A stretch of DNA of 64,000 nt, taken from positions 3,501,001-3,565,000 of the forward strand of contig NZ_JAZHRU010000001.1 in the NCBI RefSeq assembly GCF_036924525.1, read 5' to 3'. The position numbers and the translations under genes are program-made. The notes beneath the pieces were generated by a model that saw only the letters and a list, made by a program, of their open reading frames with translations, did not search any database and was not told the DNA's origin. This DNA is from Bradyrhizobium sp. AZCC 1719 (GTDB lineage Bacteria > Pseudomonadota > Alphaproteobacteria > Rhizobiales > Xanthobacteraceae). Every line of letters begins with the position of its first letter. Position 1 is the stretch's first letter. Of this stretch, positions 30,873-47,993 are shown one piece after another.

Positions 30873-30887
30873 GTTCCATATAAGAAC
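30873..30887. promoter_or_regulatory. GTTC-N7-GAAC site 1
   Basis: GTTC-CATATAA-GAAC, the upstream copy of a repeat found at four promoter-proximal positions in the window. It is 223 bases upstream of site 2, a distance compatible with DNA looping or an auxiliary site. Confidence 0.5.
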
Positions 30888-31088
30888 GATTTCAAGGGTG
30901 CACGGACTTCCCGTCACCTTTGTCGAGTCATTCAGTAACGACCGGTCCACCCCATGCCGATAGCAGCGTAAGCCGGTTGCCCGCTTCAAAGCTCAAACGC
31001 GGTTCTTGCGCGAGCTCAAACGGAGACGCCAGTCTCCCCACTGGATTGCTTCCGTACGGATACGCGGGACAATTCTTCTCGAAGCGGC

Positions 31089-31118
31089 TTGACGAGTTCT
31101 AAAAAAGAACTGTAGGTT
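31089..31118 (+). promoter_or_regulatory. Promoter with GTTC-N7-GAAC operator (site 2), binding-protein operon
   Basis: TTGACG (-35), an 18-base spacer containing GTTC-TAAAAAA-GAAC, then TAGGTT (-10-like). The arrangement is almost identical to the promoter at 39986. The palindrome fills the spacer, a position where a bound repressor would block RNA polymerase. Confidence 0.68.
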
Positions 31119-31206
31119 AACGGAAAGACGGCTGAACAATGGCCGCGGTTTGCAGGATCGCGGGCCCCGCCGGGGCGCGCACTCCGCTGTTCACAGGGAG
31201 GACGCT

Positions 31207-32409
31207 ATGCTCAAATTGTTCAAAGCTGCTTTCGCACTGATGCTTTTGGCGCTGGGATCATCCGCATTTGCCGCTGACGCCCCGGGGGTAACACAGACTG
31301 AGATCAAGATTGGCGGGGTCTTTCCTTTCAGCGGACCCGCTTCGTCGATCGGCCTGGTCGGCCGAGGGATTCTCGCTTATGTCCAGTCGATCAACGACCG
31401 CGGCGGCATCAACGGACGGAAGATCAACTACATCGCTTACGATGACGCCTACAGCCCGCCCAAGGCCGTAGAGCATGTTCGCAAGCTCGTCGAAAGCGAT
31501 GAGGTTGCCTTCATCTTCAGCCAACTCGGCACGCCCGGTAATACGGCAGTGGCAAAATATCTGATGTCGAAGCGAGTGCCGGCTATCGGCATCGTCTCGG
31601 GGTCGAACAAGTTCACGAACGTGACGGACTTTCCGCTGACGACGACCAGCCTGGTCAGCTTCGACACGGAGGGAAAGATCTACGCCAAATTCCTGACCAA
31701 GACGCTGCCGAATGCGAAATATGCCATCCTCTATCAGAACGATGACCTCGGCAAAGATTACGTCAACGCTTTCAAGGCGAGTCTGAAGGGCGATTTCGAC
31801 AAGAAAGTCACTGCCATCGCTTATGAAATCAGCGATCCAACAGTGGATTCTCAGGTCGTGAATTTGAAGAGCTCAGGCGCCGAAGCATTGCTGGTGGCAG
31901 GAACGCCAAAGTTTGCGGCGCAAGCAATCCGAAAGGCGGCCGAGATCGACTGGAAGCCAACAATCCTGCTGAACTACCCCTCCGGTTCGGTCGGCGCGAC
32001 CCTTAAACCGGCAGGACTTGAAAGGTCGGTGGGGGTGATAGTCGGGACCATCGTAATGGATCCGACCGATGCGCAGTGGGATAGTACCGCAGGGATGAAG
32101 GATTATCGGGCCTTCATCGACAAGTACATGCCGGGCGTCGATATCGCCGACGGCAATTACCTCTTCGGTTACACGCAGGCCATGCTGCTCGAACAGTTGA
32201 TCAAGCAGTGCGGCAACGATCTGTCCCGCGAGAACATCATCAGGCAGGCGAAGAGCATGAAGAATGTGGCGTTGCCGACGCTGCTGCCTGGCATCACCGT
32301 CAATACGAGCGACAAAATCAACATGAACTACACGCAGATGAGGCTGCAACGCTGGACCGGCACGCGTTGGGACCTTTTCGGCGAGGTACTCGATGCCTCT
32401 TCGGAGTGA
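31207..32409 (+). CDS. ABC transporter substrate-binding protein (LivK family), copy 1
   Basis: A 400-residue periplasmic binding protein of the branched-chain amino acid (type I) family. A Sec signal peptide (KAAFALMLLALGSSAFA, cleaved before ADAPG) is followed by TEIKIGGVFPFSGPASSIG. The two lobes include NDRGGINGRKINYIAYDDAY and YAILYQNDDLGKDYVNAFK. In Bradyrhizobium and Rhodopseudomonas, relatives often bind aromatic or phenylpropanoid acids rather than amino acids. It has a strong GGGAGG site and the GTTC-N7-GAAC promoter. A tandem paralogue follows after 73 bases. No permease or ATPase gene is present in the window. Confidence 0.93.
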   Translation: MLKLFKAAFALMLLALGSSAFAADAPGVTQTEIKIGGVFPFSGPASSIGLVGRGILAYVQSINDRGGINGRKINYIAYDDAYSPPKAVEHVRKLVESDEVAFIFSQLGTPGNTAVAKYLMSKRVPAIGIVSGSNKFTNVTDFPLTTTSLVSFDTEGKIYAKFLTKTLPNAKYAILYQNDDLGKDYVNAFKASLKGDFDKKVTAIAYEISDPTVDSQVVNLKSSGAEALLVAGTPKFAAQAIRKAAEIDWKPTILLNYPSGSVGATLKPAGLERSVGVIVGTIVMDPTDAQWDSTAGMKDYRAFIDKYMPGVDIADGNYLFGYTQAMLLEQLIKQCGNDLSRENIIRQAKSMKNVALPTLLPGITVNTSDKINMNYTQMRLQRWTGTRWDLFGEVLDASSE

Positions 32410-32482
32410 CCATGGACCAGTAGTAGCGCCGCAACAAAACAGAACCACCTGCCCGGAAGGGCGCGCGTTTGGAGGAAGAGCA

Positions 32483-33682
32483 ATGTTGATGAGATGGAAG
32501 ACCGTGGCGGCTTTGGCTTTAGTTTTGAGCGGCCCGGCATTCGCGGCCGAAGAGCCCGGAATTACAGCGACTGAGATCAAGATCGGCGCTGTTTTCCCCT
32601 TCAGCGGGCCGGCCTCATCGATCGGGCTCGTGGGCAGGGGAGTTATGGCCTATGTCCAGTCGGTCAACGATCGCGGCGGCATCAATGGCCGCAAGATCAA
32701 CTACATCGCATATGACGACGCTTACAGCCCTCCCAAAGCGGTGGAGCACGTCCGCAAACTCGTTGAGAGCGACGAAGTGTCGTTCATGTTCGGTCAGCTC
32801 GGCACGCCCGGCATCTCGGCTACGGCCAAATACCTGAGGTCGAAAGGGGTGCCCAGCATCGCAATCATGAGCGGGTCATCCAAGTTCACGGATGTTGCCA
32901 ACTACCCGCTGACCACGACAGGTCTCGTCAGCTACGACACCGAAGGAAAAATCTATGCCAAGTATCTGACGAGGGCACAGCCAAACGCCAAGTATGCCAT
33001 CCTCTATCAGAACGACGATCTCGGCAAAGACTATGTCAACGCCTTCAAGGCGTTTCTCGGCAAGGATTTCGACCGAAAGGTCGTGACCGCTTCGTATGAG
33101 GTCACTGAACCGACGGTCGATTCACAGGTCGTCAATTTGAGGAGCTCCGGTGCGGAGGCTCTCGTGATCGCCGGCACACCGAAGTTCGCCGCTCAGGCCA
33201 TCCGGCAAGCCGCGGTGATCGGCTGGAAGGCGACCGTAATCCTCAATTTTCCATCCAGCTCGGTCGGAGGCACGCTCGCACCGGCCGGACTCGACAAATC
33301 GGTCGGCGTGATCGTCGGCACGACCAACAAGGACATTCTGGATCCGGCATGGAAAGACGACCCGGGTATGCAGGCCTACCGGGTGTTCTTTGACAAGTAT
33401 TTGCCGGGCGCCGACATCACCAATGGCAGCTATCTGACCGGCTATCAGCAAGGTATCGTGCTCGAGCAAATTCTAAAGCAATGCGGCAATGATCTGTCCC
33501 GCAAGAATATTCTTGCGCAGGCCAAAAACCTGAAGGACTTCGTCGTTCCAACTGCGCTGCCCGGCATCAAGGTCAACACCACCGACACCGAGAACATGAT
33601 CTGGACGCAAATGCGATTGCAGCGGTGGGGTGGCACGAGCTGGGAAGCTTTCGGCGAAGTGCTGGACGCCAGGTCCGAGTGA
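32483..33682 (+). CDS. ABC transporter substrate-binding protein (LivK family), copy 2
   Basis: A 399-residue tandem paralogue of the preceding gene, near-identical in many blocks (for example FPFSGPASSIGLVGRG and YQNDDLGKDYVNAFKA). The signal peptide is TVAALALVLSGPAFAAEEPG. Differences cluster in parts that line the cleft, such as FGQLGTPGISATAKYLRSKG versus the first copy, suggesting a different but related ligand. ATG at 32483 follows GGAGGAAGAGCA. The pair is followed by the feruloyl-CoA-synthase-like gene, which supports uptake of a carboxylic acid destined for CoA activation. Confidence 0.93.
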   Translation: MLMRWKTVAALALVLSGPAFAAEEPGITATEIKIGAVFPFSGPASSIGLVGRGVMAYVQSVNDRGGINGRKINYIAYDDAYSPPKAVEHVRKLVESDEVSFMFGQLGTPGISATAKYLRSKGVPSIAIMSGSSKFTDVANYPLTTTGLVSYDTEGKIYAKYLTRAQPNAKYAILYQNDDLGKDYVNAFKAFLGKDFDRKVVTASYEVTEPTVDSQVVNLRSSGAEALVIAGTPKFAAQAIRQAAVIGWKATVILNFPSSSVGGTLAPAGLDKSVGVIVGTTNKDILDPAWKDDPGMQAYRVFFDKYLPGADITNGSYLTGYQQGIVLEQILKQCGNDLSRKNILAQAKNLKDFVVPTALPGIKVNTTDTENMIWTQMRLQRWGGTSWEAFGEVLDARSE

Positions 33683-33707
33683 CCTGACCACCCGAAGCTA
33701 CGAGTGC

Positions 33708-33728
33708 GGCAGTTCGATGCGAACTGCC
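33708..33728. repeat. Perfect inverted repeat GGCAGTTC-GATGC-GAACTGCC
   Basis: Eight-base perfect arms 25 bases after the second binding-protein gene. It contains GTTC and GAAC but with a five-base spacer, unlike the promoter family. It could form an RNA hairpin (no T tract follows) that stabilises the upstream mRNA or attenuates read-through, or it may be an operator. Confidence 0.5.
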
Positions 33729-33861
33729 CACCGTCTGGCCCGAAGCCCGATTGACGGATCACGCATCCAGGCGGTGGGCCCAGCGGCGATGGGCATCAGG
33801 GGTGGCAAAGCGCGTGCAGCGCGCGATGGGCTCAATGCAATAATTCAGGAGATCAATTTCG

Positions 33862-35664
33862 ATGTCGACGAAGGCACTGACGTTTGCACCGAGGGAGCTT
33901 TCCATAGAGCGTCGAACCGACGGCACGCTCATATTGAGCTCGCCTATTCAGTTGGGCGAGTGCGATTGGCGCATCACAGACTTCCTTCCGACCTGGGCAA
34001 ATTCTGTTCCGGATAGAATTTTTCTCGCGCAGCGCAACGCGAGGGGAGGATGGGACGAGATTACCTACAGCGAAGCATGGTCGCAGGTTCAGGCGGTCGG
34101 CCAAAGCCTGATCGATATGGGCGCAAAGCCGGCTGACAAGCTGGCGGTACTTTCAGGAAACTCGATCGAGAACGCGGTGATCTCGTTTGCAGCGATGTCA
34201 ATCGGGGTAATCCTGGCGCCAATATCGCCAAACTACACGCTGATGCCCGGCGGCCTGGCTCGTCTCAAGGATATTGCGGAAACCTTGCGACCGAATTTCG
34301 TTTTCGTTCAGAGCGGACGCGACTTTTCCGCTGGCCGCTCCATTCCGGAACTGGCAGCCGCAACCTGGGTCAGCGTCGATGGCGCGAAGGACACGGTGCC
34401 TTTCCACACGCTGACCGCACGAAGCTTGAGCGACGGATTCGAGCGCGCTTCAAGTGCGGTGTCTTGCGATGCCATCGCAAAGATTCTCTTCACGTCCGGT
34501 TCGACCGGTTTCCCCAAAGGCGTGCTCAATACCCACCGCATGATGGCCAGCTCTTTGCAAATGGGGAGTCTGCTGGTGTCGCCTCAAGATGCTCCGGTCC
34601 AGGTTGAGTGGCTACCCTGGCACCACACGATGGGCAGCAACGTTATCCTTCACAGCATCCTCAAGAATGGCGGCACACTTTACATCGACGATGGCCGGCC
34701 GCTGCCTCAGCTCTTCCACAAGACAGTCGCGAATCTCAGGGAGATTTCGCCCACCGCCATGTTCAACGTGCCTGCCGGCTATAATCTCTTATGCGACGCG
34801 ATCGAGAACGACCTCGAGCTTGGCGCCAGCGTGTTCAAGCGGATGGATCGATTGAGCTACGCCGGAGCTGCAATTTCGCAGGCGACGCTTGAAAAGCTCT
34901 ATCGGCTGACATCGTCGATCACCGGCCGGCGAATTCCGGTCATGTCGGGCTACGGTACCACCGAAACGGCCCCGACCATCAGTACGACCCATTGGGCCAC
35001 CGACCAGCCGGGAGAGATTGGTCTTCCGGCGCCGGGTCTGCAGCTAAAACTGATTCCTGTTTCTGATACTTACGAGGCGAGGGTGAAGGGGCCCAACGTC
35101 ACCCCGGGTTATCTCGGAAGGCCGGATTTGACGGAAAAGGCGTTCGACGAGGAAGGGTTCTATCGCATCGGCGATACCGTCTCATTTTTGGACCCTCAGA
35201 AGCCGGAGCGGGGGCTGCGTTTTACGGGCAGAATTTCCGAGAACTTCAAGCTCGCGAACGGCACGTGGGTCTCGATCGGGAATATGCGCGCAGCAATCCT
35301 GGCTGCTACGCGCGGCGTCTTGCTGGACATTGTCGTTGCGGGAGAAAACCGTGAATCGTGCGCGCTGCTTTGCTGGTTGAATCCGACCGAGGCGGCGCGA
35401 ATTTCGAAGACGCCAGCCTCGGATTTAACCTGCGACGCTCTCGTGGTTCAATTTCTGAGAGATCGTTTTCAGGAATACAATGAGTCCGTTGGAAGCAGCG
35501 AACGAATCTGTTCGTTCTGCCTGCTGACGGATCCGCCGTCATTGGCCGCAGGAGAAATCACCGACAAGGCCTATGTCAATCAACGTGCTGTGCTGAAACA
35601 TCGCTCTGAACAGGTGGAGCGCCTCTACTGCAACGAAACAAATCGAGATGTGATACGGATTTGA
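33862..35664 (+). CDS. Feruloyl-CoA synthase-like AMP-binding ligase
   Basis: A 600-residue acyl-CoA ligase resembling feruloyl-CoA synthase (Fcs), which activates hydroxycinnamates. The adenylate motif ILFTSGSTGFPKGVLNTHRM lies near residues 207-226, VEWLPWHHTMGSN and NGGTLYIDDGRPLPQLF are Fcs-style blocks, and SGYGTTETAPTISTTHW is A5 at about residue 361. The C-terminal AAGEITDKAYVNQRAVL carries the A10 lysine in the Fcs variant form. The gene follows the two binding-protein genes by 180 bases, suggesting uptake and activation of the same compound. The exact acid is not provable from sequence. Confidence 0.85.
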   Translation: MSTKALTFAPRELSIERRTDGTLILSSPIQLGECDWRITDFLPTWANSVPDRIFLAQRNARGGWDEITYSEAWSQVQAVGQSLIDMGAKPADKLAVLSGNSIENAVISFAAMSIGVILAPISPNYTLMPGGLARLKDIAETLRPNFVFVQSGRDFSAGRSIPELAAATWVSVDGAKDTVPFHTLTARSLSDGFERASSAVSCDAIAKILFTSGSTGFPKGVLNTHRMMASSLQMGSLLVSPQDAPVQVEWLPWHHTMGSNVILHSILKNGGTLYIDDGRPLPQLFHKTVANLREISPTAMFNVPAGYNLLCDAIENDLELGASVFKRMDRLSYAGAAISQATLEKLYRLTSSITGRRIPVMSGYGTTETAPTISTTHWATDQPGEIGLPAPGLQLKLIPVSDTYEARVKGPNVTPGYLGRPDLTEKAFDEEGFYRIGDTVSFLDPQKPERGLRFTGRISENFKLANGTWVSIGNMRAAILAATRGVLLDIVVAGENRESCALLCWLNPTEAARISKTPASDLTCDALVVQFLRDRFQEYNESVGSSERICSFCLLTDPPSLAAGEITDKAYVNQRAVLKHRSEQVERLYCNETNRDVIRI

Positions 35665-35713
35665 GGCGAGTTCAGCCGTTCGCCTCTGAGGTAGTCCGGG
35701 GCGAGCAGCTACC

Positions 35714-36229
35714 TCAAGCGGCCGCTTTGCGGCGCGCTTTTGCCTTCGGGCTCTCTGGCGCCGTTATTGCCGGAGTGCTCCGGGCACCGGGGCCAGGGTG
35801 GGTATGAACCTCCTTGGCCGAAAGTGGCTCGCCGCATTCGGAGCACACCATGACCGGATCGAAGTTCTTGCCGCATTTGCGGTGCTGGTGCAGCAACGGT
35901 CGCCCGCGCTCGTCGACCATGTGGGTGTCGCCCCAATGCACGATCGCCATCATGATCGGATAAAGATCGAGTCCCTTCTGAGTGAGGATATATTCATGCC
36001 GCTTGGGCGACTCCTGATACGGAATGCGGCGCAGCACGCCTTGCCGGACCAGTTTCTTCAACCGCTCGGCGAGCAAATGCCGTGTAATCCCGAGCGCAGA
36101 CTGAAATCCTTCGAAGCGGCGGGTGCGCAGGAAGCATTCGCGCAGGATAAGAAGGGTCCAACGGTCACCGATCACGCCGATGGTGCGGGCCATCGAACAC
36201 GGCTCTTCTTCAAGGGCATCCCATCGCAT
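35714..36229 (-). CDS. HxlR-family regulator with cysteine-rich C-terminal part (HxlR-1)
   Basis: A 171-residue winged-helix regulator. The N-terminal EEPCSMARTIGVIGDRWTLLILRE is the HxlR signature, with conserved Cys11, a redox-sensing residue in some members. ALGITRHLLAERLKKLVRQG is the recognition helix. Beyond the usual 110-residue domain it has CGKNFDPVMVCSECGEPLSA, three cysteines in a zinc-ribbon-like pattern, then a Lys/Ala-rich tail. It is divergent from the isomerase/CoA-transferase operon; GTTC-N7-GAAC at 36379 lies between them, making it the best candidate to bind that repeat family. Confidence 0.9.
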   Translation of the reverse strand: MRWDALEEEPCSMARTIGVIGDRWTLLILRECFLRTRRFEGFQSALGITRHLLAERLKKLVRQGVLRRIPYQESPKRHEYILTQKGLDLYPIMMAIVHWGDTHMVDERGRPLLHQHRKCGKNFDPVMVCSECGEPLSAKEVHTHPGPGARSTPAITAPESPKAKARRKAAA

Positions 36230-36296
36230 TTTCCTGCTCTCCAGTCATCCGACGACCCGATTCCGCTCGAACCGTCCCGGGAACCTCAGCTTTACC

Positions 36297-36314
36297 TACC
36301 ATTCTAGATAGGTA
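36297..36314. promoter_or_regulatory. Palindrome TACC-AT-TCTAGA-TA-GGTA upstream of HxlR-1
   Basis: An 18-base imperfect palindrome (seven of nine arm positions pair), 68 bases upstream of the HxlR-1 start. It may be an autoregulatory site or part of the minus-strand promoter. Its sequence differs from GTTC-N7-GAAC. Confidence 0.42.
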
Positions 36315-36372
36315 CTCAGCTCCAAACAATCCCCTACTGGGGACGCCAAAAGCAGTAGGAATTCCCAGGAAT

Positions 36373-36401
36373 TTGACAGTTCGTTTTTAGAACTGTAAAG
36401 A
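36373..36401 (+). promoter_or_regulatory. Promoter with GTTC-N7-GAAC operator (site 3), isomerase operon
   Basis: TTGACA (-35), then GTTC-GTTTTTA-GAAC filling the spacer, then TAAAGA as a -10-like element 17 bases away. The palindrome occupies the same position as in the promoters at 31089 and 39986. It lies between HxlR-1 and the isomerase/CoA-transferase genes. Confidence 0.65.
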
Positions 36402-36408
36402 TGGGTGG

Positions 36409-36425
36409 TAGCCGGAATTCGGCTA
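36409..36425. repeat. Perfect palindrome TAGCCG-GAATT-CGGCTA in the 5' leader
   Basis: A 17-base perfect inverted repeat just downstream of the predicted start of transcription and 49 bases before the ATG at 36474. It could act as a second operator or as an RNA hairpin in the leader. Confidence 0.45.
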
Positions 36426-36473
36426 TTGGACATTAAACCTGATCATTCGATGCACGCTCCGGGAGAAGCCGAC

Positions 36474-37106
36474 ATGCCCCTGAAGGTAGAATTCCAGTTC
36501 GATTTCGGCAGCCCCAACGCCTATCTGGCGGAGGTTGCCATTCCCGGCATCGAGCGGCGTACCGGCGTGAAATTCGAGTATGTCCCGGTTCTGCTCGGCG
36601 GCATCTACAAGGCGACGGGCAACATGTCGCCGTTCGATTCGCTTCGCGGCATCAAGAACAAGCCGGAATACCAGGCGCTGGAGACCCAACGCTTCATTCG
36701 CCGCCATAATGTAACGAAATTTCGCCAGAATCCGTTCTTTCCGGTCAACACGCTGATGCTGATGCGCGGCGCCGTCGCGGCCCAGTTCGAAGGCGTGTTC
36801 GAGCCCTATTTCCGCGCGGCCTACCATCATATGTGGGAAGAGCCGAAGAAGATGGACGACCTGGAAATCTTCCGGAGCGCATTCATCTCCTCGGGGATCG
36901 ATATCGACCGGCTGATCGCGCGTGCGCAGCGGGATGACGTCAAGAAGAGGCTGATCGATCTGACCAACGACGCCGTCAGCCGGGGAGCATTCGGCTCACC
37001 GACCTTCTTCGTCGGAAAGGAAATGTTCTTCGGCAAGGACCAGCTCCGCGACGTCGAGGAATCGATCGTCGAGCAGACCAGACAGGCTGTTCCCAAGACG
37101 GCCTAA
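36474..37106 (+). CDS. 2-hydroxychromene-2-carboxylate isomerase-like (DsbA/kappa-GST fold)
   Basis: A 210-residue thioredoxin-fold protein of the NahD/kappa-GST family. FQFDFGSPNAYLAE is the family N-terminus with the active-site serine in place of cysteine. PFFPVNTLMLMRGA and SRGAFGSPTFFVGKEMFFGKD (two blocks near residues 95 and 175) are diagnostic. NahD uses glutathione to isomerise chromene carboxylates in naphthalene breakdown. ATG at 36474 has GGGAG nine bases upstream; an ATG at 36450 is possible. A CoA-transferase gene follows after 78 bases, so the substrate may be an aromatic acid or its CoA ester. Confidence 0.9.
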   Translation: MPLKVEFQFDFGSPNAYLAEVAIPGIERRTGVKFEYVPVLLGGIYKATGNMSPFDSLRGIKNKPEYQALETQRFIRRHNVTKFRQNPFFPVNTLMLMRGAVAAQFEGVFEPYFRAAYHHMWEEPKKMDDLEIFRSAFISSGIDIDRLIARAQRDDVKKRLIDLTNDAVSRGAFGSPTFFVGKEMFFGKDQLRDVEESIVEQTRQAVPKTA

Positions 37107-37184
37107 CGGCGACGAGGGCCCGGGTAGAGTGCTAAAAGCCAAACTCCCGGACCTAAAGCAAAAGTGAACTCAGGGAGAATGCCC

Positions 37185-38384
37185 ATGCCTGGCCCGCTTA
37201 GCGGTGTTCGCGTCCTCGACCTGACCGGGGTGGTGTCGGGCCCGTTCGCGACCATGTTTCTGGCGGACCAGGGCGCCGACGTGCTGAAGATCGAGCCGAT
37301 CGGCGGCGATATTACGCGCCGCAGCCGTGCCACCATCGACAAGGATGGCGAATTCTCCGCGCTGTTCATCTCTTCGAACCGCGGCAAGCGTTCGCTGTCG
37401 ATCGACGTCAAGAGCACGGGTGGCCGTGAGGTGCTCACCAGGCTGGTCGCACAGGCCGACGTGTTGGTGCAGAACTTCCGGCCCGGCACCATGGAGCGCC
37501 TCGGTCTAGGCGTAGAAGAATTGCGGCAGCGCCATCCGCGCCTGATCTACGTCTCGATTAGTGGCGTCGGCGATACCGGCCCGTATGTAAAGAAGCGTGT
37601 ATATGACCCGATCATTCAGGGCCTGTCGGGCTTCGCCGATATCCAGTCGCAGCCGGTCACTAACCGTCCGCAGATGATCCGCACGATCGTATGCGACAAG
37701 ACCACTGCAGTGTTCACTGCACAGGCTGTGGCGGCAGCGCTCTATGCCCGTGAGAAGACGGGGCAGGGCGATCATATCCAGGTCGCGATGCTGGATGCGA
37801 TGATTTCCTATCTCTGGCCCGAAGGCATGATGCAGTACACGGTCGTGGGGGCCGAGGCTGCCGCAGCCGATCCCAACGATCGGCCGGATCTCGTGTTCAA
37901 GACCAGTGACGGCTACATCACCGCCGGCACGATTTCGGATTCCGAATGGCAGGGTTTCTGCCGGGCATCTGGCGATCCCGAGCTTGCCAACGATCCCCGG
38001 TTCGCGACGCCATCGGCGCGTTCGGTCAACGCCACCGCGCGCATCAACAAGATGGCTGAGTATATCAGCCAGCATACCACCGCGGAATGGCTGGACCGGC
38101 TAGACGCCGCCGACGTGCCTTGTGCGCCGATCCTGCGGCGGAGCGAAATCATCCACAATGAGCAGGTGGTGGCGCGCGGTATCATCGCGGAATTCGATCA
38201 GCCGAAAGTCGGCCGGGTGCGGCAGCCGAAGCCGGCGGCTCGCTTCGAAATCAATGAGGCTGCAATTGGCGGACCCGCGCCAAGGGTCGGTGAGCATTCG
38301 CGCGATGTATTGCGCGAACTGGGTTATGATGACAGCGCCATCGAGAAGATGATCGCCGAACGTGCCGTGCGTGTGGCCGTCTAG
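37185..38384 (+). CDS. CaiB/BaiF-type (class III) CoA transferase
   Basis: A 399-residue family III CoA transferase that moves CoA between carboxylic acids. The N-terminus GPLSGVRVLDLTGVVSGPFA and LADQGADVLKIEP are hallmark blocks. The catalytic aspartate is present (Asp141 in RVYDPIIQGLSGFAD). The start at 37185 is chosen because GGGAG is seven bases upstream; ATG at 37179 is too close to that site. It follows the isomerase gene under the GTTC-N7-GAAC promoter. Compare the second CoA transferase at 50563, which lacks the aspartate. Confidence 0.92.
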   Translation: MPGPLSGVRVLDLTGVVSGPFATMFLADQGADVLKIEPIGGDITRRSRATIDKDGEFSALFISSNRGKRSLSIDVKSTGGREVLTRLVAQADVLVQNFRPGTMERLGLGVEELRQRHPRLIYVSISGVGDTGPYVKKRVYDPIIQGLSGFADIQSQPVTNRPQMIRTIVCDKTTAVFTAQAVAAALYAREKTGQGDHIQVAMLDAMISYLWPEGMMQYTVVGAEAAAADPNDRPDLVFKTSDGYITAGTISDSEWQGFCRASGDPELANDPRFATPSARSVNATARINKMAEYISQHTTAEWLDRLDAADVPCAPILRRSEIIHNEQVVARGIIAEFDQPKVGRVRQPKPAARFEINEAAIGGPAPRVGEHSRDVLRELGYDDSAIEKMIAERAVRVAV

Positions 38385-38413
38385 GTCAAGCTATCGCGAT
38401 CGACGAACGGTTC

Positions 38414-39091
38414 TCAGATCTTCGCCGCTGCCGGCGTGATCGGTGCCACCGGGACATTCGCCGCGACGGCTCGCTGATAGGCCTCTCGGCTTTGGATGCG
38501 CTTAAGGTAGGGTTGCGCGTTGTCGCAGATGCCGACGCCGTAGGCGATGGCCCAATCGAGGCACGTCGTGAGCAGAATGTCGGCGCTGGTAAATTGGTCA
38601 CCCATCAGGAATGTCCGCCCATCCGCCAGCGCGACCTCCACGTGTCGTAACTGCTGCCGGAAATACTCACCCGCCTGTGCGACAACTTCGGGCGCAACTC
38701 CATAGATATGTCCCAGTGCATCCGCGCGATGGCGGCGCATGACGTAGAGGCTCGTAGAATCGAGTTCGGCCACGATAAAGAAGCACCATTCGAGCCACGC
38801 GGCATACTCGCGCTGGGTTTCCGGGATCAGCGAGCGTTCCGGCGTCGAATAGGTTCGCGACAGATAGGCGACAATCGCGGCGCTTTCGCCGATGCAGAAG
38901 TCGCCGTCCTGCAGCAGGGGAATCTTCTGGCGGGGATTGAGCTTGGTGTATTCGGCCGTCTTGGTCTCGCCGGTCCGCGGCCCGATCGGTTTGACCTTGT
39001 AGGATAAGCCAAGCTCGTGCATGGCCCAGTGCGGACGAATGGTGCGACTTGTACCAACGCCCCACAGGGTGAGATCGGGTGTAGCGTTCAT
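38414..39091 (-). CDS. Glutathione S-transferase family protein
   Basis: A 225-residue GST. The thioredoxin-like N-terminal domain contains LWGVGTSRTIRPHWAMHELG, with Ser/Thr near the glutathione site, NPRQKIPLLQDGDFCIGESAAI with the cis-Pro, and the glutamyl-binding ES pair. A helical C-terminal domain follows (DQFTSADILLTTCLDWA is the usual signature). Its start codon overlaps the stop of the SDR gene (TGATG at 39093-39089), so the two are translationally coupled; ATG at 39097 is an alternative. It may conjugate an electrophilic intermediate or supply a glutathione-dependent isomerase step. Confidence 0.9.
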   Translation of the reverse strand: MNATPDLTLWGVGTSRTIRPHWAMHELGLSYKVKPIGPRTGETKTAEYTKLNPRQKIPLLQDGDFCIGESAAIVAYLSRTYSTPERSLIPETQREYAAWLEWCFFIVAELDSTSLYVMRRHRADALGHIYGVAPEVVAQAGEYFRQQLRHVEVALADGRTFLMGDQFTSADILLTTCLDWAIAYGVGICDNAQPYLKRIQSREAYQRAVAANVPVAPITPAAAKI

Positions 39092-39834
39092 CACCATCTC
39101 TCCACGGACGGACGAAGATCGAGTTCATGGGTCCAGCCGTCTCGGCTTTGCTGATGGGCGAACCAATAGGCCTCGGCGATGGAAGACGTCTTCGTCAGGC
39201 TGTCCGGGGGAATCTCGCTTGCCTCGATTCCCTTCGCCGCTTTCATGCGCTGATGAATGGCTTCGCTATCTACGCCGGCGTCGATGATGAGATGGGCGAC
39301 GTGAATGTTCTTCGGCCCCAGCTCGCGCGCCATGGCCTGGGCCACTGCGCGAAGGCCGAACTTCGCCGATGAAAATGCAGCAAACCCCTGGCCGCCACGC
39401 ACACTGGCGGTCGCGCCGGTAAAGAAGATGGTGCCGCGTCCGCGCGGCAACATGACGCGAGCAGCCTCGCGCCCGACCAGGAATCCGGCGTAGCAGGCCA
39501 GTTCCCAGGCTTTGAAGAACAGCTTTTCCGTGGTCTCCACGAGGGGCTTGTTGACATTCGATCCGGCATTGAAAAGGCAGACTTCGATCGGTCCGATGTT
39601 GCTTTCGACGTCGGAAAAAAGCTTTTGAACTTCGGCTTCCTGGCGGGCATCGACACTGAACGCGTGAATGTTATGCCCCGCAGCCCTCAGCTCGCCCACG
39701 AGCCCCTGCGACTTGGACGCATCGCGCCTGCAGATGCAAACCGTATAGCCGCCCTTCGCAAAACGCCTGGCGACGGCCGCGCCGATGGCGTCGCCGGCGC
39801 CCACAAGTATCGCTACGCCGCGGCGCTCCACCAT
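39091..39834 (-). CDS. Atypical SDR-family protein (Tyr to Phe at active site), copy A
   Basis: A 247-residue SDR-fold protein. The cofactor motif is VGAGDAIGAAVARRF (residues 11-25) and LFNAGSNVN corresponds to NNAG. The catalytic Tyr of YxxxK is replaced by Phe154 (FSSAK158), so classical hydride-transfer catalysis by Tyr is not available. ARELGPKNIHVAHLIIDAG is strongly conserved with the paralogue at 41672. ATG at 39834 has GGGAG upstream. It is divergent from the ligase operon at 40068 and coupled to the GST gene. Reaction unknown; it may use an alternative acid, or act as an epimerase or binding protein. Confidence 0.87.
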   Translation of the reverse strand: MVERRGVAILVGAGDAIGAAVARRFAKGGYTVCICRRDASKSQGLVGELRAAGHNIHAFSVDARQEAEVQKLFSDVESNIGPIEVCLFNAGSNVNKPLVETTEKLFFKAWELACYAGFLVGREAARVMLPRGRGTIFFTGATASVRGGQGFAAFSSAKFGLRAVAQAMARELGPKNIHVAHLIIDAGVDSEAIHQRMKAAKGIEASEIPPDSLTKTSSIAEAYWFAHQQSRDGWTHELDLRPSVERW

Positions 39835-39985
39835 CCCGTTCTCCCATAAGTTCCTATTTGATACTTCAATCGTAGCTGCGGGAAGATGCATTGTAAACGA
39901 GGCTTTTCAACAACGTTGCGGATAATAATAGGGCAGCAAAGTTGCCCCTTCGGGCCTCATGAAACGGGGGGTGATGAATTAGTGA

Positions 39986-40015
39986 TTGACGAGTTCTAAA
40001 AAAGAACGTTAGGTA
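39986..40015 (+). promoter_or_regulatory. Promoter with GTTC-N7-GAAC operator (site 4), beta-oxidation operon
   Basis: TTGACG, an 18-base spacer with GTTC-TAAAAAA-GAAC, then TAGGTA. The -35 and the palindrome are base-for-base identical to the promoter at 31089 (TTGACGAGTTCTAAAAAAGA, then AC). It drives the ligase/SDR/ACAD operon and lies 52 bases upstream of the predicted start codon. Confidence 0.7.
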
Positions 40016-40067
40016 AGCGGCGAATGTGCCGCGTTAGAGGCAGGCATGCTTGGTCGGGAGGTCGGTC

Positions 40068-41657
40068 GTGGCGGAGCTATCGGAGGCGATCAATCTCGAC
40101 GAGATTGCTGTCGGCTTGCCGAGCCGCATCCATGAAGTAACGGCAGGACAGCTTGCCGAAGCCCCCGACCGGATCGCGCTGATCGAGAACGGGGCGTCCT
40201 GGAGTTACCGCGATCTGGAGCAGCGCGTTAGAGAGATCGCAACCGTCCTCTCCTCGCTTGGAATCAGAGCGGGTGATCGGATGGTCATTATCAGCGAAAA
40301 CTGCATTGCGTTGGCGGCCTTGCTGCTTGCGGCGAGCCGGCTCGACGCCTGGGCAATCGTCGCCAACCCGCGATTGTCGGCGCGCGAGTTGGACCAGATC
40401 CGGGATCATAGCGGCGCCCGCCGGATGTTCTTCACGTCAGGTGTTTCGAAAGAGGCTGCGGCGCACGCATCACGCTATGGTGCGGAGAACCGGCAAATTG
40501 GCGCGCTGCGGGAGATTGGCATCGGTCCGCTGAACGAAAGCGCCACCGTCGAGCCGGTGGAGGCCGATCCGGCAAAACAAGTCGCAGTGCTGATCTACAC
40601 CTCGGGAACGACGGGGACGCCGAAGGGGGTGATGCTCTCCCATGAAAACCTGCTGATCAGCGCCAAGACCACGGCGCATTTCCGCAAGATGGATCGAGAC
40701 GACAAGATCTATCTGGTGTTGCCGATTTCCCATATCGTCGGCATCTCGCTCCTGATCATGACCCTGATGGCCGGCGGCACCGTGCGCTTGGCCAGCCGAT
40801 ACGATCCTGCCACGCTTGCCAAGTCACTGGTCGATGAAGGCATCACTATGCTCGATGGCGCGCCGGCCACCTATCAAGGTCTTCTCGAATACAAGAATGT
40901 CGCAGGTCTGAAGCAGGTTGACTGTGGCGTACTGCGTTTGATCGCCGTTTCTGGCTCATCCCTCGATCTCAATCTGAAAACTCGCGTAGAGAGGGAGTTT
41001 GGTTTGCCTCTGCTGAACGGCTATGGGACCACCGAATGCTCGCCAGGGGTATCTGCCGTGCGCTTTGATGCCCCACGGTCCGATGATGCGGTCGGTGCGC
41101 TGCTGCCGGGAGTGGAGGCCCGCGTCAGAACGCTCGATGGTATACCGCTGTCAAGAGGGGAAGTCGGCGAGCTTCACGTGCGCGGACGCAACGTGATGCG
41201 CGGCTACTATCGTGCGCCAGACCTGACGGCGAAGGTGATTGATACCGAGCACTGGTTCAACACTGGCGATCTCGCGCGTTTCGAAGGCGATTGCCTCCAC
41301 ATCGTTGGCCGTAGCAAGGAACTGATAGGCGCGATCTCAGCCAATATTGAGGCGATCCTCAATGCGCACAAGCATGTGCAGTCCGCCGTCGTCGGCCGAG
41401 CCCTCACCGGCAACGGGGAGATTGTCGCATTCGTGCGGCCGTTGCCAGGATCGCGCGTTAAGCCGACCGATCTGATGGAAGCCATCAAACCTTGGCTCAC
41501 CTCCTATATTCGGCCGCCAAAAATCGTCGTCGTTGATGTTTTACCGGGAAGCTCAACCGGCAGGATACGCGAGCATGAGCTCGCGGCCTGTCTGCATCGC
41601 GACCGAGCTGCCGCCAAGCAGGCGGCGAAATTCCAGCGACGAACTCACTTTACTTGA
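40068..41657 (+). CDS. AMP-binding acyl-CoA ligase with altered A8/A10 motifs
   Basis: A 529-residue adenylate-forming ligase. VLIYTSGTTGTPKGVMLSHE (A3) is near residue 173 and NGYGTTECSPG (A5) near 317. WFNTGDLARFEGDCLHIVGR is A7. The hinge region reads SKELIGAISANIEA instead of the usual KxLIxxGGxNI. The A10 lysine is replaced by Arg499 (SSTGRIREHEL), which in relatives lowers adenylation. The GTG start at 40068 has GGGAGG six bases upstream; an upstream TTG at 40050 is weaker. First gene of an eight-gene operon; probably activates its substrate acid, though a different reaction is possible. Confidence 0.88.
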   Translation: MAELSEAINLDEIAVGLPSRIHEVTAGQLAEAPDRIALIENGASWSYRDLEQRVREIATVLSSLGIRAGDRMVIISENCIALAALLLAASRLDAWAIVANPRLSARELDQIRDHSGARRMFFTSGVSKEAAAHASRYGAENRQIGALREIGIGPLNESATVEPVEADPAKQVAVLIYTSGTTGTPKGVMLSHENLLISAKTTAHFRKMDRDDKIYLVLPISHIVGISLLIMTLMAGGTVRLASRYDPATLAKSLVDEGITMLDGAPATYQGLLEYKNVAGLKQVDCGVLRLIAVSGSSLDLNLKTRVEREFGLPLLNGYGTTECSPGVSAVRFDAPRSDDAVGALLPGVEARVRTLDGIPLSRGEVGELHVRGRNVMRGYYRAPDLTAKVIDTEHWFNTGDLARFEGDCLHIVGRSKELIGAISANIEAILNAHKHVQSAVVGRALTGNGEIVAFVRPLPGSRVKPTDLMEAIKPWLTSYIRPPKIVVVDVLPGSSTGRIREHELAACLHRDRAAAKQAAKFQRRTHFT

Positions 41658-41671
41658 CCGGGAGAAGACCC

Positions 41672-42409
41672 TTGCAAAAGAGAAACGCGACCGTGGCCGT
41701 AATCGGCGCCGGGGACTATATCGGCGGCGAGATTGCGAAGAAGTTCGCCTCCGAGGGCTTCACGGTGTTTGCCGGGCGCCGTAACGGGGCAAAACTCGAA
41801 CCGCTCGTCAAGGAGATCGAGAAGGCCGGCGGCGAAATTCACGCGCGCTCGCTCGATGCCCGCAAGGAGGAGGAGATCATCTCGTTTCTCAACGATGCCG
41901 ACAAGCACGCGCCTCTCGAGGTCTGCATCTTCAACATCGGCGCCAATGTCAACTTTCCGATTCTGGAAACCACCGAGCGCGTGTTCCGCAAGGTGTGGGA
42001 AATGGCCTGTTATTCCGGCTTCCTTGCCGGCCGCGAAGCAGCGCGACTGATGCTGCCCCGCGGCAAGGGCAACATCTTCTTCACAGGTGCGACGGCGAGT
42101 CTCCGTGGTGGAACGGGTTATGCAGCCTTTGCCAGCGCCAAGTTTGGCCTGCGGGCCGTCGCGCAAGCCGCGGCGCGCGAGTTGGGGCCCAAGAACATCC
42201 ACGTGGCGCATCTCATCATTGATTCCGGCGTCGACACCGAGTGGGTGCGCCAGCGACGGATCGAGGCACTCGGTCCGAACGCGCTGGATGATCCCGACGC
42301 TTTGATGCCGCCGTCCTCGGTCGCGGAATCCTATTGGCTGCTCTATCAGCAGCCGCGCAGCGCCTGGACGTTCGAGCTGGAGATTCGTCCCTTCGGCGAG
42401 AAGTGGTAA
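41672..42409 (+). CDS. Atypical SDR-family protein (Tyr to Phe at active site), copy B
   Basis: A 245-residue paralogue of the SDR at 39091. The cofactor motif is VIGAGDYIGGEIAKKF. The YxxxK position is again Phe (Phe153 in AAFASAK157FG), although a Tyr lies three residues earlier. HVAHLIIDSGVDTEWVRQRR matches copy A. The TTG start at 41672 follows GGGAG by eight bases; a TTG at 41654 overlapping the ligase stop is an alternative. Position after the ligase and before two acyl-CoA dehydrogenases suggests an acyl-CoA substrate. Confidence 0.86.
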   Translation: MQKRNATVAVIGAGDYIGGEIAKKFASEGFTVFAGRRNGAKLEPLVKEIEKAGGEIHARSLDARKEEEIISFLNDADKHAPLEVCIFNIGANVNFPILETTERVFRKVWEMACYSGFLAGREAARLMLPRGKGNIFFTGATASLRGGTGYAAFASAKFGLRAVAQAAARELGPKNIHVAHLIIDSGVDTEWVRQRRIEALGPNALDDPDALMPPSSVAESYWLLYQQPRSAWTFELEIRPFGEKW

Positions 42410-42424
42410 CGGGAGCCTCGCACG

Positions 42425-43606
42425 ATGGAGCTCAATCTTTCCAGCGAGGACGCTGCGTTTCGTGACGAGGTACGCGCTTTTATTGCGGAGAACTATCCGC
42501 AGGAAATGCGCGTTCCAAACCCCGAGACCGATTTGACCAAGGAGCAGTCGCTGCTCTGGCACAGGATCCTCTACAAAAAGGGCTGGATAGCGCCGCTATG
42601 GCCCAAGGAGTATGGCGGCCCCGGCTGGTCCGTCACGCAACGATTCATCTTTGAGCAGGAGACCTCGCGCGCCGGAACGCTGCCGCCGCTCGCATTCAGC
42701 GTCACCATGGTCGGTCCGGTCATCTACACCTTCGGCCACGAGGCGCAGAAGAAGAAATATTTGCCGCGAATCCTCTCCGGCGAGGACTGGTGGTGCCAGG
42801 GCTATTCGGAGCCGGGCTCCGGCTCCGACCTCGCCTCGATCCGCACCAAGGCGGTACGCGACGGCGACCACTACATCGTCAACGGCCACAAAACCTGGAC
42901 GACGTTGGCCCAGCATGCCGACTGGATCTTTTGCCTGGTGCGAACGGACTCTAGCGCGAAGCCTCAGGCCGGCATCTCCTTCCTGTTGATCGACATGAAA
43001 TCGCCCGGCGTCACCGTGCGGCCCATCATCACCATCGACGGTTCGCATGAAGTCAACGATGTGTTCTTCGAGGACGTGCGGGTCCCCGTGGAGAACTTGA
43101 TCGGCGAGGAAAACAAAGGCTGGACCTACGCTAAATTCCTGTTGGGTAACGAGCGTACCAGCATGGCCGGGATCGGCCGGTCCACTCGGTATCTCGGGCG
43201 TCTCAAGCAGATCGTGAGAACCGAAGTTGGCGAGGACGATCCGTCCTTCGGGGAGTTCATCAGGGAGATCGCGCGCGTCGAGCTCGATGTGCTGGCGCTG
43301 GAGGCGACCGAACTGCGCATCGTCGCGCAGATGTCGCGCGGCATCGACCCGGGACCGGCCGCGTCGCTGTTCAAGATCAGGGGAACCGAGATATTCCAGC
43401 GCATCACCGATCTGACGCACCAGGCGATCGGTAATTACGGCCTGGCCATCCGTGAGCACCCGGCAAGCGCCAACCGCTTCATGCCGGGTCCGGACTACGG
43501 ACACACCGCGACCGAGAAGTACCTGAACTCCCGCAAGCTCAGCATTTATGGGGGATCGAACGAGATCCAGCGCAACATCATCGCGAAAGCGGTGCTGGGT
43601 CTCTGA
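42425..43606 (+). CDS. Acyl-CoA dehydrogenase (large-type subunit)
   Basis: A 393-residue flavoprotein that introduces a double bond into an acyl-CoA. LWPKEYGGPGWSVTQRFIFE and WWCQGYSEPGSGSDLASIRT are the FAD and substrate blocks, HKTWTTLAQHADWIF the middle beta domain, and YGGSNEIQRNIIAKAVLGL the typical C-terminus. It pairs with a second, diverged dehydrogenase 21 bases downstream. Such pairs in steroid and cyclic-acid catabolism form alpha2beta2 enzymes, for example FadE-type heterotetramers, so a heteromeric enzyme is likely. Confidence 0.93.
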   Translation: MELNLSSEDAAFRDEVRAFIAENYPQEMRVPNPETDLTKEQSLLWHRILYKKGWIAPLWPKEYGGPGWSVTQRFIFEQETSRAGTLPPLAFSVTMVGPVIYTFGHEAQKKKYLPRILSGEDWWCQGYSEPGSGSDLASIRTKAVRDGDHYIVNGHKTWTTLAQHADWIFCLVRTDSSAKPQAGISFLLIDMKSPGVTVRPIITIDGSHEVNDVFFEDVRVPVENLIGEENKGWTYAKFLLGNERTSMAGIGRSTRYLGRLKQIVRTEVGEDDPSFGEFIREIARVELDVLALEATELRIVAQMSRGIDPGPAASLFKIRGTEIFQRITDLTHQAIGNYGLAIREHPASANRFMPGPDYGHTATEKYLNSRKLSIYGGSNEIQRNIIAKAVLGL

Positions 43607-43627
43607 TCACAGCGCACGAGGCATCCG

Positions 43628-44767
43628 ATGGACATCCAGTTGACGGAAGAACAGGAATTGCTCCGGTCCAGCATTCAACGCTTCCTGCGCGAGCAGTACG
43701 ATTTCGATGAGCGCCGCAAGATCGTTGCGACCGATGAAGGCTGGAGCCGCAGGCACTGGAAATCCTTCGCCGAACTTGGGCTCTGTGCGGCGCCGTTCCA
43801 GGAAAGCTCCGGCGGCCTTGGTGGCGGCTCGCTTGCGACGATGATCGTGATGCAGGAGTTCGGCCGCAACCTCGTCGTCGAGCCGTATTTTGAGACGGTT
43901 GTCCTCGCCGGTGGACTGATCGAGGACGTCGGCTCGCCCGAGCAGCGCCAGGCGCTTCTGCCGAAGATCATGGAGGGCGAGGCGATATGGGCGCTGGCCT
44001 GGGCGGAAGGACGGTCACGTTATGATTTCAACAACGTCACCACGACCGCGCGCCGCCAAGGGGACAAGTTTGTCCTGAGCGGAACCAAAGCCGCGGTGGT
44101 CGGTGCGCCATGGGCCGACAAGCTGATCGTTTCGGCGCGCACCTCGGGCCAGCAACGCGATCGCGACGGCGTCAGTCTGTTTGTCGTCGATCGCCATGCG
44201 GCCAATCTTCACCTGCAGAGCTTCAAGACGATCGACGGCCGGCGCGCCGCTGAACTCACGCTGATGAAAGTCGAGGTGCCGGCCAGCCAGATGCTGGGCA
44301 GCGAAGGCGAGGGCGTCGCGGCCCTGGAGGCGGCTCGCGATCGCGCCATCGCGGCCCTTTGCGCGGAAGCCGTCGGTGCCATGACGGAGCTGAACTCGGC
44401 GACGCTCGAATACAGCAAGACGCGCAAGCAGTTCGGGGTTGCGCTGGGAACGTTTCAGGTGCTGCAGCACCGCATGGTCGACATGTTCATCGCGCTTGAG
44501 GAATCGATTTCGCTCACTCAGCATTTGAATCTAACCCTGGCGTCGAAGGAACCGAACGGATCGAAACTGGCGTCCGGCGCCAAGACGAAGGTCGGCTACG
44601 CCGCACGCTTTGTCGCAGAGCAGGCCGTGCAACTGCACGGCGGCATGGGCATGAGCGACGAGTTGAACGTCGGCCACTACTTCAAGCGAATCTCCTCCAT
44701 CAACATCCAGTTCGGCGATCCCGCCTACCATCTGATGCGGTACGCGCAGCTGGACGCGGCCGCCTAA
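43628..44767 (+). CDS. Acyl-CoA dehydrogenase (small-type partner)
   Basis: A 379-residue acyl-CoA dehydrogenase family protein, diverged from its neighbour. The N-terminal helices are [40 protein letters not shown] is the early signature, and [20 protein letters not shown] is the FAD-contact helix. The C-terminal end reads [20 protein letters not shown], replacing the usual GG(T/S)xE motif with a His/Gly form. This matches the non-catalytic or partner subunit in two-gene dehydrogenases. It is spaced 21 bases from the preceding gene and 14 from the thiolase gene. Confidence 0.92.
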
Positions 44768-44781
44768 GCAGAGAGGCAAGC

Positions 44782-45969
44782 ATGACGACTGAAGCAGTAA
44801 TCGTTTCCACCGCCCGCACGGGCGTCGGCAAAGCCTATCGCGGTGCGCTCAACAACACCGAGGGCCCGACTTTGGCTGGCCACGTCATGGCCGAAGCGGT
44901 GAAGCGGGCCGGCATCGCGCCCGGCGAGGTCGAGGACGTGGTGATGGGCTGTGCGATGCAGCAGGGCACCATGGTGATGAACGTGGCGCGCAAGGGTGCG
45001 ATCCGCGCTGGCCTGCCGGTGACGGTCGCCGGCACCACAATTGACCGGCAATGTGCCTCCGGCCTGCAGGCGATTGCGGTTGCCGCACGATCGGTGATGC
45101 TCGACGGCGTCGAGATCGCGATCGGCGGCGGCATCGAATCGATCAGCCTCGTGCAGAACGAGCACATGAACAAGTTTCATGTCGTCGACGAAGAGTTGAT
45201 GGCGATGAAGCCCGAAATGTACATGTCCATGTTGGAAACCGCCGAGGTCGTCGCCGAACGCTATAAGATCGGTCGAGACAAGCAGGATGAATACAGCCTC
45301 GAGTGCCAGCGCCGCGTGGGCGCTGCGCTGCAAGGCGGCCGTTTCAATGACGAGATCGTGCCGATCACGACCAAAATGGCCGTGGTCGACAAGGATACCA
45401 AGGAGGTCAGCTATCAGCAGGTGACGCTGTCGAAGGACGAGGGGCCGAGGCCGGACACTACCGCCGAAGGCCTTGCAAAGATCAAGCCCGTGTTTGAAGG
45501 CAAAACAATTAGTGCGGGCAATGCGAGCCAGCTCTCCGATGGCGCCTCGGCCTGCGTGATCATGAGCGACAAGATTGCGGCGAAGAAGGGCCTGAAGCCG
45601 CTTGGCATCTTCCGCGGGTTCGTTGCCGCCGGCGTCGAGCCAGACGAGATGGGCGTGGGCCCGGTCGCCGCGATCCCGCGGTTGCTCAAGCGCCATAACC
45701 TGAAAATCGATGACATTGATCTCTGGGAGCTCAATGAGGCCTACGCGGTGCAGGTGATCTATTGCCGCGACAAGCTCGGGATCGACCCGGAGAAGCTCAA
45801 CGTCAATGGCGGATCGATCGCGATCGGTCACCCCTACGGTATGACCGGGGCGCGGCTCACGGGCCACCTCCTGATCGAGGGCCGGCGGCGCAAGGCGAAG
45901 TACGGCGTGGTGACCATGTGCATCGGTGGCGGCATGGGCGCGGCGGGTCTGTTCGAAATCGTCAACTGA
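44782..45969 (+). CDS. Acetyl-CoA acyltransferase (thiolase)
   Basis: A 395-residue thiolase carrying out the final thiolytic cleavage of a 3-ketoacyl-CoA. The nucleophilic Cys91 lies in [13 protein letters not shown], the His in [17 protein letters not shown] and the second Cys in [13 protein letters not shown]. All three catalytic elements are intact. The start ATG has AGAGAGG upstream. It sits in the operon after the two acyl-CoA dehydrogenases. A different thiolase gene at 58143 shares a TetR-type operator with the regulator downstream of this operon. Confidence 0.94.
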
Positions 45970-45990
45970 TCGGAAAGCGGAGAATCACAC

Positions 45991-46995
45991 GTGAAGACAG
46001 CAATCACTGAATTGTTCGGCATCCAGCATCCGATCATCCAAGGCGGCATGCACTATGTCGGCTTCGCCGAGCTGGCCGCAGCGGTGTCGAACGCTGGCGG
46101 TCTCGGCATCATCACCGGCCTTACCCAGAAGACGCCGGAATTGCTGGCGAAGGAAATCGCGCGCTGCCGCGATATGACCGACAAGCCGTTCGGCGTGAAC
46201 CTTACTTTCCTGCCGAGCTTCACCGCGCCGCCCTATCCGGAATATATCGCCGCTATCAAGGAAGGCGGCGTCAAGGCGGTGGAGACCGCTGGCCGCAGCC
46301 CCGAGCAGTACATGCCTGCGCTGAAAGCTGCTGGCATCAAGGTGATCCACAAATGCACCTCGGTGCGGCATTCGCTGAAAGCCGAGAAGATCGGCTGCGA
46401 CGCCGTCAGCGTCGACGGCTTTGAATGCGGCGGCCATCCCGGCGAGGACGACATCCCGAACATGATCCTGCTGCCGCGTGCGGCGGACGAGCTGAAGATC
46501 CCGTTCGTGGCGTCGGGCGGCATGGCCGACGCGCGGAGCCTCGTCGCGGCGCTGTCGATGGGGGCCGCCGGCATGAACATGGGTACCCGCTTCATCGCCA
46601 CGAAGGAAGCGCCGGTCCACGACAATGTAAAGCAGGCGCTGGTCAAGGCGACCGAACTCGACACCGTTCTGGTCATGCGCGCGCTGCGCAATACCGAGCG
46701 CGTCTTGAAGAACAAGGGCGTCGACCAGCTGCTCGAGGTCGAGCGCGAGAAGGGCGCGAGCCTGAAGATTGGTGACATCCACGAGCAGGTCGCTGGAGTC
46801 TATCCAAAGGTGATGATCGATGGCGACATGGACGCGGGCGCGTGGAGTTGCGGCATGGTCGTTGGACTCATTCAGGACATTCCGACGGTGAAGGAGTTGA
46901 TGGATCGCATCATGGCGGATGCCGAGCGGCTGATCAGGGGCCGGCTTACGGGATTCCTGGACGCGGACAGCAAGGAAGCCTTGATGGTCGCCTGA
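45991..46995 (+). CDS. PA1024-type NADH:quinone reductase / nitronate monooxygenase family
   Basis: A 334-residue FMN protein of the 2-nitropropane dioxygenase fold. The blocks HPIIQGGMHYVG, VETAGRSPEQY, VIHKCTSVRHSLKAEK and DGFECGGHPGEDDIPN match, from memory, Pseudomonas PA1024. That protein was annotated as nitronate monooxygenase but shown to be an NADH:quinone reductase. A related fold member (IpdC) acts in steroid ring breakdown. GTG start with CGGAGAA upstream. In a beta-oxidation operon it may recycle NADH or reduce an acyl-CoA intermediate; nitronate oxidation is less likely. Confidence 0.86.
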   Translation: MKTAITELFGIQHPIIQGGMHYVGFAELAAAVSNAGGLGIITGLTQKTPELLAKEIARCRDMTDKPFGVNLTFLPSFTAPPYPEYIAAIKEGGVKAVETAGRSPEQYMPALKAAGIKVIHKCTSVRHSLKAEKIGCDAVSVDGFECGGHPGEDDIPNMILLPRAADELKIPFVASGGMADARSLVAALSMGAAGMNMGTRFIATKEAPVHDNVKQALVKATELDTVLVMRALRNTERVLKNKGVDQLLEVEREKGASLKIGDIHEQVAGVYPKVMIDGDMDAGAWSCGMVVGLIQDIPTVKELMDRIMADAERLIRGRLTGFLDADSKEALMVA

Positions 46996-47019
46996 AGGCG
47001 CGCAAGGAGAACAGGGCGG

Positions 47020-47954: not shown

Positions 47955-47993
47955 TAATATGGCTCTGTTTCTTTGGTCATCCCGGAGCAAGCA

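Follow-up and report, generated by a model that had tools for sequence, protein, structure and literature searches.

A candidate HxlR-family regulator and its probable promoter-embedded operators in Bradyrhizobium sp. AZCC 1719

Three promoters with a shared palindrome and the genes behind them

We analyzed a 64,000-nucleotide stretch of the Bradyrhizobium sp. AZCC 1719 genome (contig NZ_JAZHRU010000001.1, positions 3,501,001 to 3,565,000; hereafter the window), in which the exact palindrome GTTC-N7-GAAC occurs four times, at 30873, 31096, 36379 and 39993, and at no other place. Three of these copies lie between the -35 and -10 elements of a promoter, each ahead of its own transcription unit, and the middle promoter diverges from the gene of an HxlR-family protein, HxlR-1 (Table 1). 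From sequence comparison, it is very probable that HxlR-1 represses these three promoters, and with them a regulon for transport, coenzyme A (CoA) ligation and beta-oxidation.

The predicted genes of units A to C would suit a pathway that takes up an organic acid, activates it with CoA and degrades it by beta-oxidation. The acyl-CoA synthetase of unit A carries an AMP-binding domain (PF00501) and scores above the PRK12582 cut-off, and the first of the two binding proteins has a weak PRK15404 match. The first-pass annotation of the window had described an eight-gene beta-oxidation operon; an operon of this kind does lie behind promoter C, but it comprises seven genes, and the eighth would be the gene of a TetR-family protein. 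The nearest models of the two unit C dehydrogenases are those of pimC and pimD (TIGR03204 and TIGR03203) from the pim operon for pimeloyl-CoA degradation. Both nevertheless score below the NCBIfam equivalog cut-offs (487.4 versus 623.85 bits for PimC and 378.9 versus 652.7 bits for PimD), so that the scores do not point to pimelate as the substrate, and a pimelate degradation operon was rejected.

Whereas the bare palindrome is in modest excess in the window (four copies versus a shuffle mean of 0.93, with at least four reached in 3 of 100 shuffles), its promoter-embedded form, TTGAC-N1/2-GTTC-N7-GAAC, occurs three times versus a mean of 0.007 and a maximum of 1 in 300 dinucleotide shuffles. 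Direct reading bears out the earlier description of three sites in the spacers of TTGAC(A/G) promoters, two of them identical across the -35 element and the palindrome: TTGACGAGTTCTAAAAAAGAAC is common to promoters A (31089-31110) and C (39986-40007) over 22 bp. The first-pass annotation had also proposed a genome-wide search for the motif near TTGAC and had raised its possible equal abundance elsewhere, an objection that fails for the embedded form. Across the whole 7.2-Mb genome, the pattern TTGACN{1,2}GTTCNNWWWNNGAAC matches the three window promoters and nothing further, while the bare palindrome is common, at 87 matches versus 67 for the reversed pattern. With two mismatches allowed, the consensus AGTTCTWWWWWAGAACT is found at four places in the genome, all within the window, namely the three operators and a weaker site at 59647. 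The palindrome at 30873 is not among them; it has neither a preceding TTGAC nor a following TA, and it could be aligned in only one (L046) of ten loci compared. We therefore retain three operators of the four-site family originally suggested, all four palindromes being present in the sequence.

A relaxed form of the operator, AATTC-TATTTTG-GAATT, lies at 59459-59475, upstream of a thiolase gene (58143-59339, minus strand), and like the weak site at 59647 it aligns with changes in two loci of relatives (L230 and L231). More degenerate distant sites in the same genome were rejected as operators, since TTGACNNGTTC-N7-GAAC with up to two mismatches is found 98 times versus 70 for the reversed control and is indistinguishable from noise.

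Table 1. Promoters, palindromes, candidate regulators and transcription units in the window.
Feature	Coordinates	Strand	Description	Basis
Promoter A	31089..31118	+	-35 TTGACG 31089-31094; operator GTTCTAAAAAAGAAC 31096-31110; spacer 18; -10 TAGGTT 31113-31118	direct reading
Promoter B	36373..36401	+	-35 TTGACA 36373-36378; operator GTTCGTTTTTAGAAC 36379-36393; spacer 17; -10 TAAAGA 36396-36401; divergent from HxlR-1	direct reading
Promoter C	39986..40015	+	-35 TTGACG 39986-39991; operator GTTCTAAAAAAGAAC 39993-40007; spacer 18; -10 TAGGTA 40010-40015	direct reading
HxlR-1	35714..36229	-	proposed regulator, 171 aa	Pfam HxlR PF01638, E 1.9e-23, 82.6 bits versus cut-off 20.8
Probable HxlR-1 promoter	36301..36329	-	putative -35 TTGTTT (36329-36324); 17-bp spacer; -10 TAGAAT (36306-36301)	direct reading
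Unit A	31207..35664	+	two LivK-like substrate-binding proteins (31207-32409, 32393-33682); acyl-CoA synthetase (33862-35664)	open reading frames
Unit B	36474..38384	+	DsbA-fold isomerase-like protein (36474-37106); class III CoA-transferase (37164-38384)	PF01323; PF02515
Unit C	40050..47847	+	seven genes: acyl-CoA ligase, SDR, two PimC/PimD-like acyl-CoA dehydrogenases, thiolase, FabK/NMO-like enzyme, enoyl-CoA hydratase	open reading frames, families
TetR-family gene	47988..48590	+	directly behind unit C	PF00440
Palindrome	30873..30887		GTTCCATATAAGAAC; present, unsupported as operator	
Weak consensus match	59647..59663		AGTTCTAAATTGGTACT; two mismatches to AGTTCTWWWWWAGAACT, no TTGAC; before a glutaredoxin-like gene	

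Conservation of the operator and its association with HxlR genes

The embedded motif and HxlR-1 occur together throughout the genus. Among 195 genomes scanned, with orthologs called at E <= 1e-40, the motif is present in 172 and HxlR-1 in 171; all 171 genomes with HxlR-1 carry the motif, as opposed to one of the 24 without it (nominal Fisher p 5e-29, kinship uncorrected; 20 of the 24 were listed explicitly and the other four are defined by absence from the ortholog table). In the single exception (G088) the site falls inside an open reading frame (ORF) of 672 aa, in surroundings that lack all 20 query genes, and the reversed control pattern gave one match each in four genomes of the genus. Of the 24 genomes that lack HxlR-1, 22 keep a close homolog of the SDR2 gene (80-93% identity) next to a homolog of DsbA or NMO, and none of the 23 such loci fetched has the palindrome; the motif is therefore not a fixed feature of these genes. 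The motif, the candidate regulator and the target list hold in 171 of the 195 sampled genomes.

The arrangement of the promoters is likewise conserved. With TetR homologs as the guide, we took 20 stretches of about 20 kb (398 kb in all) out of 18 further genomes of the genus and dropped tblastn hits covering less than half of the query. These stretches contain 41 exact palindromes, 35 of them linked to TTGAC. HxlR-1 is encoded in 15 of these stretches and has a linked palindrome beside it in each, while other linked palindromes stand ahead of genes for binding proteins and of the ligase operon, corresponding to promoters A and C. The exact palindrome also lies upstream of HxlR-1 at all 37 same-family loci examined, with TTGACA before it in 34. 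Base counts at 146 unique flanked sites (leaving out loci L133-L157, L189 and L234-L308 as well as sites with short flanks) place a T three positions after the palindrome in 96% of the 93 sites that start one base after TTGAC and in 90% of the 53 that start two bases after it, followed by an A in 84% and 90%, respectively. The 7-bp spacer of the palindrome is 95% A/T, and the TA of the -10 element is conserved, unlike the bases that follow. As far as sequence can tell, the picture is that of an operator built into the promoter.

At many loci with a single listed site, the palindrome separates HxlR-1 from SDR2-NMO or DsbA-ligase genes, and in other species further operators precede genes for binding proteins and, by ORF reading, for Old-Yellow-Enzyme-like, ETF-beta-like and TetR proteins. 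The window also holds an Old-Yellow-Enzyme-like gene by ORF reading (24148-25245, minus strand) that resembles these operator-bearing genes, with no exact palindrome at 25201-25700.

The association extends beyond the family. An order-wide search matched 40 of 297 genomes and a phylum-wide search 74 of 388; loci were taken from the best 30 of each, and are thus best-scoring rather than randomly sampled. Pooling them with loci of named genomes and dropping duplicates reduced 102 loci to 94, of which 83 lie outside the family and 11 inside. The exact palindrome is found within 200 bp upstream of the HxlR gene at 27 of the 83 non-family loci, whereas only 1 of 1185 control windows taken from these loci contains it. 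Among palindromes with 4-bp arms and a spacer of 3-12 bp, none is more frequent in that position. At ten such loci the adjacent genes vary, among them SDRs, an acyl-CoA ligase, a hydrolase and an MFS transporter, with two lacking a Pfam match; what the palindrome accompanies is therefore this type of HxlR gene and not a particular neighborhood. The embedded form itself was found in four non-family genomes among the 297 scanned in the order. In two (G350 and G433) it is adjacent to an HxlR homolog (46-47% identity) and is joined by a second, tandem palindrome, and the other two matches (G403 and G455), from genomes having no HxlR match at E <= 1e-25, look like chance and were set aside.

HxlR-1 as the proposed regulator

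By sequence, the solved relatives of HxlR-1 within the HxlR family include HypR/YybR, HxlR and YodB, and its named relatives among the 120 matches listed of 3089 include proteins of unclassified Bradyrhizobium (88%) and of Afipia sp. TerB (84%). Its structure model is poor overall (mean pLDDT, the predicted local distance difference test score, of 58.8), with residues 41-80 averaging 77-85; it contains a helix at 50-62 followed by two strands, and fold matches add little. Residues 48-61 (ITRHLLAERLKKLV) are invariant across 37 same-family proteins save for substitutions at positions 54 and 55 in two proteins apiece, and Cys11 is kept in all 37 same-family and all 22 other aligned sequences. 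Residues H116, C119, C129 and C132 are also invariant in the 37 same-family proteins, with all or most of them kept in 14 of the 22 others, and possibly form a metal site.

In the mode of action that we propose, HxlR-1 is a winged-helix repressor that acts as a dimer. The recognition helix of each monomer (approximately residues 49-61, TRHLLAERLKKLV) would enter a GTTC half-site, so that the dimer would occupy two successive major grooves. Bound between the -35 and -10 elements, it would exclude RNA polymerase, until a pathway metabolite or a reactive electrophile, possibly sensed through Cys11, releases it and jointly switches on the genes for uptake, CoA activation and beta-oxidation-type reactions, which presumably act on one common substrate.

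The kind of regulator is a known one. YodB, an HxlR/DUF24-type repressor of Bacillus subtilis, prefers TACT-N7-AGTA according to a review (PMC8063818), and it resembles HxlR-1 in family, in an operator with 4-bp arms and a 7-bp spacer (for HxlR-1, a site defined by sequence only) and in a cysteine near the N terminus. It differs in its half-site letters and in controlling quinone and electrophile detoxification rather than a beta-oxidation-type regulon. Cys11 of HxlR-1 corresponds to the position where YodB and B. subtilis HxlR are reported to sense electrophiles. CouR of Rhodococcus is alike in role: this small repressor with a winged-helix fold reportedly controls a catabolic pathway that depends on CoA, and an acyl-CoA catabolite releases it; it belongs to the MarR family proper, however, and the similarity is one of role and not of descent. 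The inducer of HxlR-1 may be an acyl-CoA, by analogy with CouR, or an electrophile. In open-access papers, YodB's is the one HxlR-family operator sequence that we found, and a search of an open-access library listed no paper that we recognized as a description of the present operator or of such an HxlR regulon. Both are new to us, and the novel part is the possible operator class that crosses phyla together with its possible recognition code.

The same family also contains an activator, and HxlR-1 might bind its sites as such or switch roles. B. subtilis HxlR, in which the aligned N-terminal position is likewise the counterpart of Cys11, activates its targets in response to formaldehyde, which strengthens its binding to DNA (PMC7835342). 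The window sites, however, fill the -35/-10 spacer at an ordinary 17-18 bp, where a bound dimer should block polymerase; repression is for this reason the likeliest mode, and activation appears unlikely.

Could a different protein own the palindromes, or none at all? The earlier proposal of a single regulator, HxlR-1, for all three units is strongly supported by co-occurrence in the genus, conservation of the promoters and recurrence of the motif at distant HxlR genes, as well as by the failure of the TetR-family protein as a candidate. TetR proteins often bind palindromes inside promoters, and the TetR gene directly follows unit C, which would leave HxlR-1 as a mere neighbor. Yet a best TetR match beyond E 1e-58 occurs in only 36 of the 195 genomes (hand count) versus 172 with the motif, the exact palindrome is absent from 47700-48100 around the TetR gene start, and one locus (L059) has a 61% identical TetR homolog with neither an HxlR-1 match nor the palindrome. 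The motif does not track the TetR gene, and we reject this candidate as very improbable. Another regulator encoded outside the window is slightly less remote, although still improbable: any cis element upstream of HxlR-1 would give a similar within-genus profile if the palindrome were conserved there only through a co-inherited divergent promoter, but the palindrome recurs at promoters away from HxlR-1 and is also overrepresented ahead of HxlR genes from other families and from Streptomyces, where the genes beside it differ. That the palindromes are products of chance or of promoter duplication, as the roughly fourfold excess of the bare motif over shuffles and the identity of promoters A and C might suggest, is scarcely credible in view of the embedded-form counts, the conservation in the genus and the retained TA followed by varying bases.

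Several observations weigh against regulation by HxlR-1 or narrow its reach. Because one of the operators sits directly ahead of HxlR-1 itself, in the upstream region of that gene, the co-occurrence within the genus partly reflects co-inheritance of one locus, and the SDR2 loci retained in HxlR-1-negative genomes may be paralogous. Outside the family, the embedded form is present, within the order, in only 2 of 30 genomes with an HxlR homolog at E <= 1e-25 (the best 30 of 40), leaving 28 devoid of it, and 56 of the 83 HxlR loci have no exact palindrome. Of the 27 that do, 16 come from a set of 26 related Streptomyces loci and are not independent, with 11 of 57 remaining when Streptomyces is set aside. 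Finally, operator B is located upstream of the promoter predicted for HxlR-1 itself, at a distance of about 50 bp; both hexamers of that promoter sit in stretches alignable in relatives, and autoregulation is uncertain owing to this distance.

The -10 element of that probable promoter is overlapped by a second palindrome, TACC-N10-GGTA (36297-36314), unchanged in four loci of relatives (L046, L047, L060 and L065). It is the sole palindrome of its kind in the window and therefore provides no link among the three units; we rejected it as the actual HxlR-1 site, and it is possibly the site of another regulator or of a second HxlR-1 binding mode. Two further HxlR-family genes (51876-52457 and approximately 56133-56810) lie within about 21 kb of HxlR-1, and their helix residues differ.

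Recognition-helix residues and half-site letters

A pattern noticed after the fact suggests a code relating the first residues of the recognition helix to the half-site. Sorted by residues 49-51, non-family loci carry the exact palindrome in 6 of 9 cases with TRH, 16 of 31 with SRK, 3 of 3 with SRP and the single cases of SRS and SRN (1/1 each), as opposed to none of 12 with SRT, 6 with ARN, 5 with TRP and 14 in the smaller classes together. By eye, in the SRT and TRP loci L239, L267, L276 and L134, those with a TRP helix carry GTTT-N7-(G/A)AAC upstream instead, and the SRT locus L239 has GTCC-N7-GGAC.

These pairings raise the serious if tentative possibility that one operator class of fixed 4-7-4 geometry serves much of the HxlR family, across a range from Alphaproteobacteria to Streptomyces, that its half-site letters follow the first helix residues (GTTC-N7-GAAC for TRH, SRK and SRP, GTTT-N7-(G/A)AAC for TRP and GTCC-N7-GGAC for at least one SRT protein), and that in the genus this regulator, starting with a single divergent site, came to control regulons with as many as nine promoters. 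If true, the pairing of helix and half-site would allow HxlR targets to be predicted in other genomes. At four loci from other families (L139, L141, L234 and L268), a tandem pair of palindromes 23-28 bp apart lies just upstream of the HxlR gene, as compared with the single sites of the window.

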